DNA of 64,000 bases, taken from assembly GCA_027488865.1 (NCBI GenBank), contig JAIYAU010000053.1, positions 1-64,000 of the forward strand. The letters run 5' to 3'. Shown here one piece after another: positions 435-30,871 of this stretch. How positions within the stretch are numbered: the first letter of the stretch is position 1; each line of letters opens with the position of its first letter. The translations under genes and the position numbers were made by a program. The notes under the pieces were generated by a model. That model ran no database searches. It saw only the letters and a program-made list of their open reading frames with translations, and was not told where the DNA came from. The DNA comes from Cytophagaceae bacterium. Lineage in GTDB: Bacteria; Bacteroidota; Bacteroidia; Cytophagales; UBA9547.

Positions 435-1565
435 CTACTTTCCAAACCAACGTGCTTTACGACTGCTGCCGAAATGCTCTTTGTCAACAACCAGCGTTTC
501 AGAAGCCTCATGATGAATACCAAAGGGTTTGGGACCGGAGAAAAAATCAACATCAACTCGGGCAACATTACCCTTGCCAAACTCAATGTAACAAGAGCCT
601 GCACCTGTATATGGAGTCTCATTTTCTTTTCCTTTGAATGCCGCAATGATAGAAGCAGCCGCAATTTTTGCAGCCCCTTCGGCAAATACGCCCGCTTTTG
701 GTGTGCCTACACTGGTTACATCCCCAATGGCATACACATTTGAAAATTTTGTACGCAGGTTTGCCTTGTCTACTGGTATCCATCCATTTTCTGTCAAACC
801 ACTTTGCAAGACCACATCGGGAGCAACATGCTTTGGAATCCCTAAAAATAAATCGCATGGTAGTTCAGTTCCATCATCTAAGGTTACCTTTTTATTTTCG
901 CCCACACTTGTCACTTTTCTTTGAGGAATAAAACGGATATTTCTTTCTTCAAATGCTTTTAATAGTGCCTTGGAGGAATCTGGCGATGGAGGAATGGGAA
1001 GGCCAAACGGAATTACCAAACTTATGCTGCATGCATCACGCAATCCTCGGTTTACAAGGTAATCATGAAGCATTAAAGCAGCCTCACTAGGTGCAGGCGG
1101 ACATTTGAAAGGTGCACTACAAACTCCAACAACAGCATGACCTTTAGTGAATTGTGGCAATTTGTCACGCAATTTTTCGGCACCAGAAAAACTGTAATAT
1201 TCATTGCCCCATGTGGTTAGGCCAGGTGTTGCTGCCATGTCATAATTGGCACCCAAAGCAACAACTAAAACATCTGCCTCATATTTTCCATTGCTTGTTG
1301 TCACCGTTTTTGAAACTGGGTCTATAGCCGTAATCGTTTCCTTACGAAACTTAACACCAGGCTTTACAATGTGGCTATAAGATATTTTCACAGCTTCCGA
1401 TGATTTATGCCCAAACATCACATCCAATTTTGAAAACCCAAAGAAAAATGAATCGTTCTGATCTATTAATGTAAGATCGAGCTGATCTCCAATTGTTTCG
1501 GAAAGAATAGAACTTAATTCCAAGCCGCCAAATCCGGCACCTAATACAGTCACTCTTAATTTCAT
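435..1565 (-). CDS. FAD-dependent oxidoreductase, sulfide:quinone reductase-like
   Basis: The 376-residue protein has the layout of the SQR/flavocytochrome c sulfide dehydrogenase/NDH-2 superfamily. An N-terminal dinucleotide-binding GAGFGG lies at residues 9-14, a second ALGANYD element near 104, and the late FAD-binding YAIGDV at 278-283. Cys149 and Cys155 sit in a C-x5-CPPAPSE motif, and Cys325 in a CYIEFG motif; Cys155 and Cys325 are at places where SQR and FCSD carry their redox-active cysteines, so sulfide or persulfide oxidation is a reasonable guess. No signal peptide is seen; SQR enzymes are usually peripheral on the inner membrane. It is the last gene of a minus-strand set after the peroxiredoxin and DUF2892 genes, with 26 bases between it and the latter. 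Exact substrate remains uncertain. Confidence 0.8.
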   Translation of the reverse strand: MKLRVTVLGAGFGGLELSSILSETIGDQLDLTLIDQNDSFFFGFSKLDVMFGHKSSEAVKISYSHIVKPGVKFRKETITAIDPVSKTVTTSNGKYEADVLVVALGANYDMAATPGLTTWGNEYYSFSGAEKLRDKLPQFTKGHAVVGVCSAPFKCPPAPSEAALMLHDYLVNRGLRDACSISLVIPFGLPIPPSPDSSKALLKAFEERNIRFIPQRKVTSVGENKKVTLDDGTELPCDLFLGIPKHVAPDVVLQSGLTENGWIPVDKANLRTKFSNVYAIGDVTSVGTPKAGVFAEGAAKIAAASIIAAFKGKENETPYTGAGSCYIEFGKGNVARVDVDFFSGPKPFGIHHEASETLVVDKEHFGSSRKARWFGK

Positions 1566-3316: not shown

Positions 3317-3439
3317 GCAAATAACGGTTTCGGTTCATGAAGGACGGGATTTTTAAAGGCAATATACGGGACGAGAGGCAAAATTCCACACACTTTTGAA
3401 CTTATTCCGATGTATCAATGCCCGTCTCTCAGAAGCGCA
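3317..3439 (-). repeat. 123-bp repeat, copy 1 (attC-like)
   Basis: About 85% identical, by eye, to the copy at 6006-6128. The best-conserved block contains AATATACGGGACG and GAGGCAAAATTCC. Read on the minus strand the repeat ends in CCGTTATTTGC, where the other copy has CCGTTGGGTGC, so a conserved CCGTT and TGC flank a variable triplet. The middle can fold (GTG-GG opposite CC-CAC, with further pairs outside). This copy is 229 bases after the DUF4132 gene and 104 bases before the Crp/Fnr gene start. The resemblance to integron attC sites is an inference. Confidence 0.7.
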
Positions 3440-3667
3440 CTATTTTTAAAAATGAGTTGCGAATAATGCTTCTCCATCCAGCACCCCTCCTCACGACAAA
3501 TCCATAATTACAGCTTGCTCCGCTACCCAAGGTTACGTTCAACAGGGTTTCATCTCTTGTTTTGCAAACAAGACGAAACCTTAGTGGTTATGTGCTGCTC
3601 TTTTTGTCCGCAGAGTTAGTATCAACGAGTAAGAAAAGTCGAATATTTAAGACTGTCCAACACTCAC
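3440..3667. other. Non-coding stretch with a hairpin at 3546-3580
   Basis: No convincing gene is seen here. A two-part hairpin is present: GGTTTC (3546-3551) pairs with GAAACC (3575-3580), and TCTTGTTT (3555-3562) pairs with AAACAAGA (3566-3573) across a 3-base loop. There is no T tract, so it is a poor terminator. It lies in the tail downstream of the DUF4132 gene. Confidence 0.45.
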
Positions 3668-5545
3668 TTATTTTCTGTTTATTTGGTTTAAAATTACACA
3701 ATCTGTTATTTTGTCGTCGTCAGCTAACAACAATGCTTTACTGATAATGATTGATAAAGTTGCATCACCGTCAAAAGGTAAAAATAGCTTGTCTTTAACT
3801 GCTGCTTTAGGGTCGGGAATGATACATAAATACTCATCATTGGGCTCCATCAAAATATTTCCACTTCCAAAGTGTATTTTATAAACTCTCTTTTTACCAG
3901 TTACTTTAAGATATTTGTCAGAAACTTCACACTTGTCTTTTATTTTTAATTTTGAAATAATTGTTTGAATTACACTTTTCCTTGTTTGGGCTGTTTCAGA
4001 TAAATCTGAGGTCGAATAGCCAGTCCAATACTCTCTAAATCTTTGATTCTCCCATTGTTCCTCTGCACCAATTGAACAAACACCAACAAATAAATCAGTA
4101 TCTCTCATAGATTCTGAAAATATGAGTGTTGGAATATCCTCCATTTTTAAAGCTACATTATTTTCTGTATCTCTAAAATGTAGTTGCCCGGTTGTTGCAA
4201 AATCATAATCACTTTCTAAGTCAAAAGTGCATTTTATCTTAAAGTCAGGATAAGAAATACTTGGATTTTCGCCACCTGAATATAAATCGCTATGACTATA
4301 TCGCCATAAACGTTGCTGTGCCAGAGCAACAAATTTAACATGCCTAATTACATGGTTATTAAATCTATTTGAAAATGTTGATGTGTTGATTTCTGCCCCT
4401 GTAACAATGTAAACTTCTCTATACGCCTGCTTAAATGGTTGTTTAACTTCATTTGAAAGCATGAAATTACGCCATGCCTGTACTTCTTCAACGCTTGATA
4501 GGGCAGGATGCCATAATGTTACTGTTGTATTTTCAATATCGTGAATTTGATTGTTTTGAAAATCAACAAACTGACCATTCAAGAAATAACCATTTTTTAA
4601 TTCTCCGTCAGTTTCAAACCTCCAAATTAGTTTACGAGTAAGAAAACCAAGTAATTGATGGTCAAAAAAGTATTTTTTCCAAACTTCACCGCTCCAACTT
4701 TTTTTCTTTTTCCAAAAACTTTCAAATCTTAATTTTTGTCCAGAAAACTCTTTTTTGATGTCGTTCACAGTGGATTTCCAAACTTTTAACTCGTTTCCAA
4801 AATTAGTTTTAACGGCTGAGGGTTCACTTTTCAATATATTTTCAGATTTTGTCCAAATCACTTCAATATCATCATAATCGTTAATTTTCAGTTTTGATTT
4901 ATATTCACCAAATTCCCTTTCGAGTACGCCACCAATTAAGCCATAATCTGAAATGAAATAATCCTCAACATCATTAGGATTTAACTTTGAGTATCTAACA
5001 GCCCAAGGTATAACTTTTTCGAGTTCTTCTAAAAAGACCGGATATTTGTTCCTTGATTTGAGTTTAAGAAGTGTTCCTAAACCCTCTATTGTACCACTAT
5101 TATAAAAAAGGCTAAGTATTTCATCGCCGAGTTTCCTTGAAGTTGGGCCAACAAGTGGGATTTTTTTGAAACATTTTTCTACAATTTTTGTAAGTATTTC
5201 ATATTTGTTTGGGGCATTGATGTTGAATAATATCCTAACAAAAAATATGTACACTCTAACTTTATCTCCAACGAACCATTGACTTCTCTTTGGCATTGGC
5301 TCACAAGTCAAATCGTGAAGCCCTAAAATAAATGCTTCATAATCGGTTGGTTTTATTTTATTTATTATAATTTGACATTCGTCTTCATTTATTCTTTTCA
5401 ATGCCGATAAATTCTCTATAAGTTGATAAAATTCTTGTCTATTATCAATGAATAATAAATTTTGTTCTTGTAACCACTTCCACTTTTTATCATTAGCTAA
5501 GTCTTTGGCTAATATGGGTATTTCTTCCAGCATTTTTTCAGTCAT
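3668..5545 (-). CDS. DUF4132/DUF7737 (MolR-like) protein
   Basis: The 625-residue protein resembles the C-terminal half of MolR/WGR-DUF4132 proteins. The first half (to about 250) is helical and variable. The DUF4132 core, about 280-450, includes KYFFDHQLLGFLTRKLIW, TVTLWHPALSS, QPFKQAYREVYIVT and a SNRFNNHVIRHVKFVALAQQRLW segment. The last 100 residues match the DUF7737-type tail, with HFGSGNILMEPNDEYLCIIP and FLPFDGDATLSIIISKALLLADD. It is much shorter than full-length MolR and has no WGR domain. No membrane segment or signal peptide is seen. It starts 11 bases after the small Gly-Gly-ending protein and forms a two-gene unit with it. The biochemical role of DUF4132 is not known to me; such genes are typically accessory. 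Confidence 0.75.
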   Translation of the reverse strand: MTEKMLEEIPILAKDLANDKKWKWLQEQNLLFIDNRQEFYQLIENLSALKRINEDECQIIINKIKPTDYEAFILGLHDLTCEPMPKRSQWFVGDKVRVYIFFVRILFNINAPNKYEILTKIVEKCFKKIPLVGPTSRKLGDEILSLFYNSGTIEGLGTLLKLKSRNKYPVFLEELEKVIPWAVRYSKLNPNDVEDYFISDYGLIGGVLEREFGEYKSKLKINDYDDIEVIWTKSENILKSEPSAVKTNFGNELKVWKSTVNDIKKEFSGQKLRFESFWKKKKSWSGEVWKKYFFDHQLLGFLTRKLIWRFETDGELKNGYFLNGQFVDFQNNQIHDIENTTVTLWHPALSSVEEVQAWRNFMLSNEVKQPFKQAYREVYIVTGAEINTSTFSNRFNNHVIRHVKFVALAQQRLWRYSHSDLYSGGENPSISYPDFKIKCTFDLESDYDFATTGQLHFRDTENNVALKMEDIPTLIFSESMRDTDLFVGVCSIGAEEQWENQRFREYWTGYSTSDLSETAQTRKSVIQTIISKLKIKDKCEVSDKYLKVTGKKRVYKIHFGSGNILMEPNDEYLCIIPDPKAAVKDKLFLPFDGDATLSIIISKALLLADDDKITDCVILNQINRK

Positions 5546-5556
5546 AATAATTTATT

Positions 5557-5964
5557 TTAACCTCCTACTAAGGCGATAAGTCTAACGAATGATACAGATA
5601 AATTTTTGTGAATTGTGATTTCTTCTTCTAAGTCTGAGTATTGCTCATTGTCAATAAGCATAAAGAAACCGTTCTTTTGAAATGCACTTAAAGCTAAATA
5701 ATATTGTTTTTCAGCGTCAATTAATTTGGGTTCTCTCATTTTGTAATGATTGAGTTTGCCTTCGACTGAATCCGATTCTAAAGGTTGAACAAGTCCCTGA
5801 AAAAACTCAGATTTAGATTGATTATATAAGCCCACCTCATGAAAAACTCTTGACTTGATTAAATCTTTGACTTTTACATTTTCATTTTGAACTTTCATAA
5901 CAAACTGGTTTCTGATTGTCCCAGTCATAGATTCGTCCCTAATAGTTATCTCTGTTTCTTCCAT
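5557..5964 (-). CDS. Small protein ending in Gly-Gly, partner of DUF4132 gene
   Basis: A 135-residue protein with no signal peptide or membrane segment. It begins with a beta-rich stretch (EITIRDESMTGTIRNQFVMKV) followed by a helix (VKVKDLIKSRVFHEV), an order compatible with a ubiquitin-like fold. It has FFQGLVQP in the middle and ends SVSFVRLIALVGG, with two exposed terminal glycines as in ubiquitin-like, MoaD or ThiS proteins. I recall similar small proteins next to DUF4132 genes but cannot verify this here. A caution is that the Gly-Gly codons form an AGGAGG that could act as the ribosome-binding site of the next gene, so the sequence may be under double constraint. The function is unknown. 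Confidence 0.65.
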   Translation of the reverse strand: MEETEITIRDESMTGTIRNQFVMKVQNENVKVKDLIKSRVFHEVGLYNQSKSEFFQGLVQPLESDSVEGKLNHYKMREPKLIDAEKQYYLALSAFQKNGFFMLIDNEQYSDLEEEITIHKNLSVSFVRLIALVGG

Positions 5965-6005: not shown

Positions 6006-6128
6006 GCACCCAACGGTCCACCGTTTTTAAAGGTCGAGATTTTTAGAAGCAATATACGGGACGTGAGGCAAAATTCCGCACACTTTTAAGATATTCCGAT
6101 GCATCAACGCCCTTCTTTCAGAAGCGCA
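6006..6128 (-). repeat. 123-bp repeat, copy 2 (attC-like)
   Basis: Partner of the repeat at 3317-3439, same length and orientation. On the minus strand it ends in CCGTTGGGTGC, which contains GTTGGGT, a fit to the GTTRRRY core site of integron attC elements. The centre can fold as GTG-GG opposite CC-CAC, extended by GGAATAT opposite ATATT, and the start holds a small CTTC/GAAG hairpin. It begins 20 bases after the stop of the 114-residue ORF and ends 41 bases before the Gly-Gly protein gene. Confidence 0.7.
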
Positions 6129-6147
6129 ATTTTGTGCGTAGTGTTTT

Positions 6148-7312: not shown

Positions 7313-7843
7313 TCAAGTAGTATTGCAATAACCACGATTACCTACCCACTTGCCCTGCCGCCTTTCTCCAACGTTTACCTTTCTTGGCAATGGAGAGGCG
7401 ATTGGTTTTCTGCATAATGAAAGCCTTTGCCTTCTTCTGTGCTTGCTCGGTGCCAAAGGCTGCATCTGGTGTATTTCCCTCAAAATCTCTTCCCAACTGG
7501 CATATTTAGTCACGCTGGGTGGCACTGTTAAGGGGATGTGGATGCCCTTCAAGAAATACTGGGTAGCCAACAGATGTACATTTTTCTTCTTTTCCATTTT
7601 GGCAATAGCCAAATAAGCAGCCTTGATCTCAGGCACTAACATGGCTTGGTTGGCGTAATGCACCGCATCGCGGAACTTGCTGCGGCTTTTTTGCTGCTTA
7701 GGTGTGTTGGAGACTGGGCCTTGGTACCTTGCATAAAAAACAGTACGGCCATTTTGCTGGCGAAACACCCAGTTGCCAAACTTGCCACTCAAGCCTTTTA
7801 AAAATCCAGCGTTAAATAGATATTCCAATCGATTACGTTCCAT
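7313..7843 (-). CDS. Hypothetical protein, probably frameshifted near the 3' end
   Basis: Start chosen at the ATG giving MERNRLEYLFNAGFLKG; the frame is open further upstream but that part looks non-coding. The protein has a GLSGKFGNWVFRQQNGRTVFY opening and a basic NTPKQQKSRSKFRDAVHYANQ stretch, like a group of short Bacteroidota proteins of unknown role. After about residue 135 the frame turns into an unnatural Arg/Pro-rich tail. Another frame over the same bases reads EGNTPDAAFGTEQAQKKAKA and continues to a natural lysine-rich end with a stop at 7338-7340. This indicates an indel of one base, in the DNA or in the read, around 7470-7500. Confidence 0.55.
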   Translation of the reverse strand: MERNRLEYLFNAGFLKGLSGKFGNWVFRQQNGRTVFYARYQGPVSNTPKQQKSRSKFRDAVHYANQAMLVPEIKAAYLAIAKMEKKKNVHLLATQYFLKGIHIPLTVPPSVTKYASWEEILREIHQMQPLAPSKHRRRQRLSLCRKPIASPLPRKVNVGERRQGKWVGNRGYCNTT

Positions 7844-8154
7844 ACTACAAAGATAGTATGCCACAGTGCATCCAGCGTGCACGGTGGTGAAAAGTTTAAA
7901 AGTTATTGGATGGCTGAGGGACCACCATCGAATGACTCTTGGAAGATAACCGTAGGATGGAAATAATTAATAGTTAAATACCAAGCGTTTTAGATATTTA
8001 ACTTGGGGCTTCGAGCTGTAACAATGGAGTTATCAAAATTATATTTAATAATTCTGTAATTAATGTATTATCACTATTTTGTGGAAAGTTTACTAGCTTT
8101 TTCGTGGAATTCCGAAAAGAGTTATTTTAACATTTGATTTATTCCTTTTTTAAA

Positions 8155-30607: not shown

Positions 30608-30871
30608 CTAACCTCCGCTAACAGGTGGAATTAAAGCAATCTCATCACCCAAAGAAATAATAAGATCTAAGGGAACATATTCATGATTGAGAGCGATATT
30701 AAGTGAACTAAGCAATTTTAATTTTGGGAATTTTAGTGTCAATTCTTCCTTAAAAGTTGCTATCGATTTTCCTTCCAAGTTTAGGTATAGCTCGCTTAAA
30801 CCAGTTATATCTTTAGTAATCCCAAAAAATAGTATTTTATTAGAGTTTACTGACTTTTCCAAACTATTCAA
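30608..30871 (-). CDS. moaD: Molybdopterin synthase sulfur carrier subunit
   Basis: An 87-residue ubiquitin-like MoaD ending in PPVSGG, the terminal Gly-Gly that is adenylated and turned into a thiocarboxylate. The beginning KILFFGITKDITGLSELYLNLEG and the middle NHEYVPLDLIISLGDEIALIPPVSGG are standard. It overlaps the end of porT by 8 bases and precedes moaE by 9, so translation is linked. The mature terminus shows no extra residues after Gly-Gly, so no processing is needed. Confidence 0.93.
   Translation of the reverse strand: MNSLEKSVNSNKILFFGITKDITGLSELYLNLEGKSIATFKEELTLKFPKLKLLSSLNIALNHEYVPLDLIISLGDEIALIPPVSGG

Follow-up and report, generated by a model that had tools for sequence, protein, structure and literature searches.

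Genes of the module

We analysed a two-gene module on contig JAIYAU010000053.1 of a Cytophagaceae bacterium (assembly GCA_027488865.1), in a stretch of 64,000 nucleotides (positions 1 to 64,000) that is called the window below. The first gene encodes a small protein of 135 amino acids (aa) that ends in Gly-Gly, and the second one, which starts 11 bases further on the same strand, encodes a large protein with the DUF4132 and DUF7737 domains (Table 1). This arrangement, noticed earlier in a sequence-only reading of the window, was confirmed by the open reading frames (ORFs) and by Pfam. The two domains of the large protein far exceed the Pfam cut-offs for PF13569 and PF24879 (27 bits), and no Pfam family was found over cut-off in the small protein. 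When both proteins were scanned, no match was near any NCBIfam cut-off and PADLOC gave no match. The window's genome contains a single match each for the small gene and for the large gene.

Table 1. Features of the module and of its flanks, in window positions
Feature	Positions	Strand	Basis
Small protein, predicted to be ubiquitin-like (Ubl), 135 aa, C-terminus ...SFVRLIALVGG followed by the stop	5557..5964	-	ORF reading, family, predicted fold
Codons of Gly134-Gly135, directly before the stop	5560..5565	-	Translation; invariant in 80/80 rows of alignment A3
Large partner, 625 aa, with a helical N-terminal part followed by DUF4132 and DUF7737	3668..5545	-	ORF, Pfam, structural comparison
DUF4132 domain (PF13569), residues 238-414	4304..4834	-	Pfam E 4.5e-38, 131.4 bits
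DUF7737 domain (PF24879), residues 519-622	3680..3991	-	Pfam E 1.7e-36, 124.8 bits
Dispersed repeat past the 3' end of the module	3333..3444		Repeat comparison
Dispersed repeat past the 5' end of the module	6023..6133		Repeat comparison

The small-protein family and its Gly-Gly tail

A survey of 291 related genomes showed the small gene in 31 genomes, at 38 places, of which 27 and 20 were used in alignments A1 and A2, respectively. In a second survey, of 395 sampled genomes of the phylum, a broader small-protein profile matched 11. When 84,980 species genomes were scanned with two patterns, 220 relatives were obtained; we used the best 80, whose titles are nearly all from Bacteroidota. One of the two patterns contains LVGG, so the resulting set is biased for a Gly-Gly tail. 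Two metagenome-assembled relatives from outside Bacteroidota (Thalassovita and Microcoleus) may be misbinned. When all searches were pooled, the 145 small-protein records were reduced to 138 distinct members by removal of duplicates over the last 100 residues, and these members were split by profile score: 112 are closer to the clade of the window (clade A) and 26 to a sister clade (clade B). Alignment A3 contains the window protein and 79 of the 80 loci, L068 being excluded for its broken ORF, and alignment A4 contains the window's large protein and 53 of 75 partner ORFs.

The results of these searches showed that Gly-Gly stands right before the stop in 110 of the 112 clade A members, the exceptions being L040 (which ends in VGV) and L068 (whose ORF is broken before the tail). 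Among clade A members gathered without the pattern that bears Gly-Gly, 38 of 39 have it. By comparison, only 3 of 1255 neighbouring ORFs, called mechanically at 116 loci, end in GG, and the Gly-Gly end is thus beyond chance. The tail of clade A is mostly TPLVGG, and the invariant columns of A3 (80 rows) include F126, L129, L132, G134 and G135. The invariance that the sequence-only reading had put at stake is therefore nearly complete in clade A and does not extend to the whole family, since only 3 of the 26 clade B members have a terminal GG. Pfam scans of 27 family members gave scattered matches, each in one member and with no consistent family, and a sequence search of the PDB gave no convincing match for the small-protein family.

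The DUF4132 partner

A homologue of the large gene is located downstream of the small gene, on the same strand, at 101 of the 112 clade A loci, with a median gap of 3 bases and a gap of 15 bases or less at 74 loci. All nine genomes in which the partner is not adjacent or the small gene lies at a contig end have DUF4132 elsewhere, one of them as a fragment; this check left out the unlinked loci L061, L074, L105 and L110. Over the 291 relatives, a DUF4132 match was present in 31 of the 31 genomes with the small gene and in 21 of the 260 others, one of these 21 being below cut-off (Fisher 3e-28, kinship not corrected). The tight linkage of the two families, which had been seen in the window copy, is thus found elsewhere as well.

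The partners of clade A have a median length of 859 aa, and 9 of 101 are under 700 aa, with the 625-aa partner of the window among these short ones. Many polar residues of the DUF4132 core are invariant, among them H346, R359, K372, R376, E377, E385, R394, H398 and D484, a pattern that is enzyme-like. This core gave no convincing structural match in the PDB (best Foldseek E 0.16), and the VIA-align rows for the large protein cover mainly its helical N-terminus; the missing match is no evidence of a new fold. DUF4132 (MolR/YehI-like) proteins occur in E. coli, one of our control genomes, among others, and a literature search found no known activity for them.

Tandem copies of the partner gene were observed at two loci: three DUF4132 copies follow one small gene in L033 (9864-17829), and three copies are present with two small genes in L026 (2915-12247). 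A second DUF4132 context was observed in L182, on an Allorhizobium plasmid, as an AAA ATPase - DUF5682 - DUF4132 - VWA - SWIM operon. It has DUF4132 in common with the module but no small Ubl is annotated in it.

An E1-like third gene

Clustering of the neighbours of the 116 loci, near-duplicates included, showed that, besides the partner, a single family recurs at a constant same-strand position, namely +2 in 23 loci; the other neighbour families at one fixed same-strand position were limited to at most 8 of 116 loci, and most neighbour clusters were without annotation. The +2 family is the ThiF/MoeB/E1 family, with PF00899 at E values of 2e-58 to 4e-72 in the six members scanned, and none of the same six reached the cut-off of any NCBIfam model listed. 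In this first set, which includes two near-duplicates, 19 of the 23 E1 genes share 1 or 4 bases with the DUF4132 gene. The GxGGLG loop and one Cys are present in all 23 aligned E1s, and D, N, R, Q and K positions that follow the loop are invariant. MoeB carries a CxxC motif, whereas none of these 23 proteins has one, and a rhodanese domain was found in none of the seven linked E1s that were scanned.

A second count, in which duplicates were removed and later loci added, required the E1 gene to be on the same strand within 7 kb and enough downstream sequence to be present. Comparison of the two clades showed that the E1 gene is the third gene at 23 of 96 clade A loci and at none of the 24 from clade B (Fisher p 0.007, without correction for kinship); three of the 23 loci came from searches without the pattern that bears Gly-Gly. 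The DUF4132 gene, which the sequence-only reading had taken for the only partner, is thus joined by another recurring gene in relatives. When the presence of the E1 was placed on a FastTree of 115 partner proteins, 9 changes were needed, of which at least 5 are forced by well-supported branches, and this indicates that the linkage was gained or lost repeatedly, although long branches, including that of the window, make the details of this tree unsure.

The window's genome has three ThiF-family genes, one of which encodes a 381-aa ThiF-rhodanese protein on contig C13. A ThiF-family gene was found in 39 of 40 carriers of the small gene (all those from the surveys of 291 relatives and 395 genomes, carriers first found later being left out), the carrier without one being G479, of clade B. 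Since 12 of 14 control genomes have such a gene too, its presence in carriers is weak evidence. In G156, an 89% complete genome, the operon E1 is the only ThiF match. The operon E1 of L025 and L118 (G156) is short, at 194 aa, and its C-terminal part is absent in the alignment. We also searched 24 genomes (the 23 with a linked E1 and that of the window) for Prok-E2_B (PF14461), the sole E2 family searched, and found it in none of them, but the control genomes were also without a match, so this negative carries no information.

Predicted fold of the small protein

The AlphaFold2 model made from alignment A3 has a mean pLDDT of 79 and a pTM of 0.72, with the order bb-a-a-bbbb; its confidence is very low for residues 59-74, and its tail has no regular structure. 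When this model was compared with VIA-align, the rows were mostly ubiquitin-like folds, the top structural match being human MOCS2A (MoaD; 5mpo_B) with a Z of 7.5 and an rmsd of 3.1 over 76 aligned residues, followed by ubiquitin (2gbm_A, Z 7.4) and Caldiarchaeum ubiquitin (6fj7, Z 7.3). The small protein is therefore predicted to have the beta-grasp fold of ubiquitin and MoaD, and the ubiquitin-like fold suspected from the letters of the window is supported by the model and by VIA-align at the level of a prediction.

A sister clade mostly without Gly-Gly

The clade B proteins are about 140 aa long, and comparison of their profile with that of clade A gave 99.1%. Their partners are about 1630-1750 aa where complete, and the two that were scanned (L154 and Deinococcus L176) have the order DUF5724-DUF4132-DUF7737. 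The partner gene is downstream at 16 of 26 loci and upstream at several others. Among the 26 tails, 23 are without a terminal GG and 21 of these 23 end in W (for example GSYW, GTYW, GAYW, GGW and RLW), and the only GG ends belong to three Deinococcus members, with LAGG. At loci L051-L056, L154-L169 and L179 the conserved tail was observed to end mostly in W instead of GG. Homologues without Gly-Gly, for which the sequence-only reading had asked as a refutation, were thus found, yet they form a clade of their own whose partners are built differently. The tail may have docking to the partner as its common role, with activation as an option of the forms with GG; alternatively, the W forms are derived. 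Clade B, in which the partner is kept and Gly-Gly is absent, offers a natural experiment on the purpose of the tail.

Relatives in other phyla and the Deinococcus operon

Relatives of the family were found outside Bacteroidota in Actinomycetota, Alphaproteobacteria and Deinococcus. A tblastn search of a plasmid collection gave a small gene in Nonomuraea gerenzanensis, with the tail LVGG and a DUF4132 gene next to it, in a record of 11.8 Mb, which is therefore really a chromosome. A tblastn search of the same collection with the large protein led to a small gene in Novosphingobium humi, with the tail LKGG and a DUF4132 gene next to it. In Deinococcus radiodurans the family member (HMM E about 1e-27) has 134 aa, ends in LTALAGG and lies 2 bases before a DUF4132 gene, and D. 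ficus and D. psychrotolerans have a similar arrangement with LAGG tails.

We identify the D. radiodurans pair with DRA0165-DRA0166 on two grounds: the upstream thioredoxin gene agrees with PMC9650054, and the motif given for DRA0165 in PMC8533742 is found ahead of the small gene without a single difference. DR_A0165, or SEP068184, is therefore a member of the small-protein family, paired with a DUF4132 gene like the window copy. PMC8533742 describes DRA0165 as a target of DdrO with a motif at -83, the drA0165-drA0166 operon as strongly increased on DdrO depletion, and the DRA0166 protein as raised by mitomycin C in the wild type and not in the irrE mutant. According to PMC9650054, the same protein, named SEP068184 there, is increased after irradiation and after H2O2, its deletion makes the cells more resistant to H2O2, and its model is likened to MOCS2A (MoaD) and SAMP1. 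The paper also states that its gene has no radiation/desiccation response motif and is confined to Deinococcus, and the words DUF4132 and ubiquitin are absent from its main text.

We scanned the region upstream of position 469 of L176 (D. radiodurans DRA0165) and loci L177 and L178 for this motif. A sequence with one mismatch to the consensus, TATGCTATTTACATA, was found in D. radiodurans (at -79) and D. psychrotolerans (at -91), and one with two mismatches, TCTGCTATTTACAGA, in D. ficus (at -72). These near-consensus motifs support PMC8533742 over PMC9650054 on the presence of the motif, and the members in Nonomuraea, Novosphingobium and Bacteroidota show that the family is not limited to Deinococcus, unlike what PMC9650054 states. 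Two literatures on D. radiodurans, one on DRA0165 as a MoaD-like stress peptide and the other on DRA0166 as a DdrO target, are joined in this way into one system, for which D. radiodurans is a ready model organism. The E1 linkage in relatives is new beyond the sequence-only reading.

Proposed activity and alternatives

On balance, we consider it more probable than not that the small protein is a ubiquitin-like carrier which is activated by an E1 and has DUF4132 as its dedicated partner; most likely it is a modifier that works without an E2. A ThiF/MoeB-type E1 would adenylate the exposed C-terminal glycine, and the activated tail would be handed to, or used by, the DUF4132-DUF7737 protein. The window copy would use a stand-alone E1 encoded elsewhere, most likely the ThiF-rhodanese protein of contig C13. 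The likeliest use would be the modification of proteins in the manner of the E2-less SAMP/TtuB/Urm1 systems. The DUF4132 protein would be the acceptor or the transferase, no JAB protease gene would lie alongside the operon, and the setting would be a response to stress, in Deinococcus to DNA damage or oxidative stress. The predicted fold, the Gly-Gly of clade A, the DUF4132 linkage and the E1 gene at 23 of 96 loci speak for the role as modifier or carrier that had been suggested for the window copy; the defensive purpose attached to it was not supported. A wider form of this proposal, that these genes represent a widespread and unrecognised E2-less bacterial Ubl conjugation in which DUF4132-DUF7737 proteins would be ligases or obligate acceptors of a GG-ended modifier, with a ThiF-like E1 and a part in the Deinococcus DNA-damage response, is possible, but we regard it as rather doubtful.

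The systems SAMP1/SAMP2-UbaA of archaea, TtuB-TtuC of Thermus and Urm1-Uba4 consist of a GG-ended beta-grasp carrier and a MoeB-like E1, with no E2. The module shares with them the GG-ended carrier, with its predicted beta-grasp fold, and, in relatives, the MoeB-like E1, but differs in its dedicated DUF4132-DUF7737 gene, in a length of about 130 aa with a predicted disordered insert, and in the lack of a confident profile similarity of the small family to MoaD/ThiS. JAB proteases are the usual deconjugating partners in ubiquitin-like systems. CBASS Cap2/Cap3 and Bil/Bub have, like the E1-linked loci, a Ubl and an E1-like enzyme in one operon; unlike in bacterial Ubl conjugation systems, no JAB gene was found beside the linked trios tested. 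Iyer et al. 2006 (PMC1779556) tabulate a bacterial operon with Ubl, JAB, E1 and E2. Our literature search, with most subscription journals and bioRxiv preprints outside its reach, found no description of a link between Ubl, DUF4132 and E1. The tie of one DUF4132 branch to a GG-ended Ubl and an E1 provides a concrete, testable biochemical hypothesis.

Several results weigh against an E1-activated modifier. With the model of the small protein, no Foldseek match reached E <= 0.001, and the matches listed were ubiquitin-like proteins mixed with superantigen-like and other domains. Structural Z values below 8 can stem from an arrangement that is merely common. When 17 ThiS-family rows were compared by hhalign, the similarity was weak for clade A (probability 4.6%, E 0.0087, with GG opposite GG) and for clade B (probability 2.2%). 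With such Z values and such a weak profile comparison, common descent with MoaD is not established. Clade B has kept the partner and a conserved tail without GG, which gives the tail a role that is independent of GG. No E1 gene is adjacent to the window copy, and 73 of the 96 clade A loci are also without a linked one. In the same 24 genomes that were searched for an E2, Prok-JAB (PF14464) was over cut-off in only one, off the contig of the operon.

In the classical pathways MoaD-MoaE-MoeB and ThiS-ThiG-ThiF a carrier acts with a large partner and an E1, and the small protein might, by analogy, be a sulphur carrier: the E1 would adenylate its tail, a rhodanese or persulphide donor would give the thiocarboxylate and the DUF4132-DUF7737 protein would use the sulphur. 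The sequence of genes from carrier through large protein to E1, the top structural match with molybdopterin synthase (its MoaD subunit), the fusion of the best E1 of the window's genome to a rhodanese and the enzyme-like invariant polar residues of the DUF4132 core all fit such a pathway, and the tails are alike (mostly PPVSGG in 17 ThiS-family proteins, TPLVGG here). However, the partner is DUF4132 instead of MoaE or ThiG, no rhodanese was found in the seven linked E1s that were scanned, no other family holds a fixed same-strand position at more than 8 of 116 loci, and the sister clade lives with the pair but without GG, which is hardly possible for a sulphur carrier. We therefore judge a sulphur carrier unlikely.

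The W-ended tails of clade B (21 of 23 non-GG tails), which are highly conserved but different and are kept with the same partner family, would be explained if the small protein were a non-covalent regulatory subunit of beta-grasp fold that docks with its C-terminal strand and tail into the DUF4132 protein. Gly-Gly would then be a packing need, and the E1 would act elsewhere or be a later addition, as the 73 clade A loci without it could suggest. Such a subunit leaves unexplained both the exact terminal GG in four phyla and the repeated E1 linkage that is confined to clade A, and we find it about as improbable as the sulphur carrier.

Defence and mobility

We then considered whether the module could serve in anti-phage defence, as the sequence-only reading had suggested. 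Bil systems are bacterial Ubl-E1 systems that serve defence, and the patchy distribution of the small gene (31 of 291 relatives) would suit such a role. CBASS Cap2, another bacterial Ubl-E1 system, is likewise described as serving defence. In contrast, neither module protein matches PADLOC, the large protein has no match in 50,697 phage records, and a pattern search of viral contigs, sensitive to close relatives only, did not find the family. The 84 nearest neighbours (84 of 85 drawn from 112 eligible) matched 14 PADLOC families (E 1e-10) and 85 genes further out (of 182) matched 42, the matches of the nearest neighbours being scattered, with WYL regulators in 3 of 84. The suggestion of a defence role was thus not borne out, there being no excess of defence genes among the neighbours, and we hold it to be very improbable.

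The module has a GC content of 0.317 and the window one of 0.345, and the small gene was absent from the 9 genomes of the same family that were searched; this combination fits a horizontal gain. The repeats that frame the module are real and 82-86% alike. They belong to a dispersed intergenic repeat of roughly 107 bases with five copies in the assembly, the other three of which are single (G000 C46, C38 and C63). Since just two of the five copies flank the module, the repeats were rejected as the ends of a mobile element, and the mobility of the module that had been read from them was not supported.

Two minor observations concern the remainder of the window. A ThiS/MoaD-family gene (PF02597, E 2.7e-14) is located at 30611-30835 on the minus strand, far from the module. 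Similar ORFs at 7313-7882 (minus strand) of the window and at 947-1480 (plus strand) of L215 share the sequence ...GNWVFR...VSNTPKQQKSRSKFR.AVHYAN, and in each case a copy of the repeat is only a few kb away.

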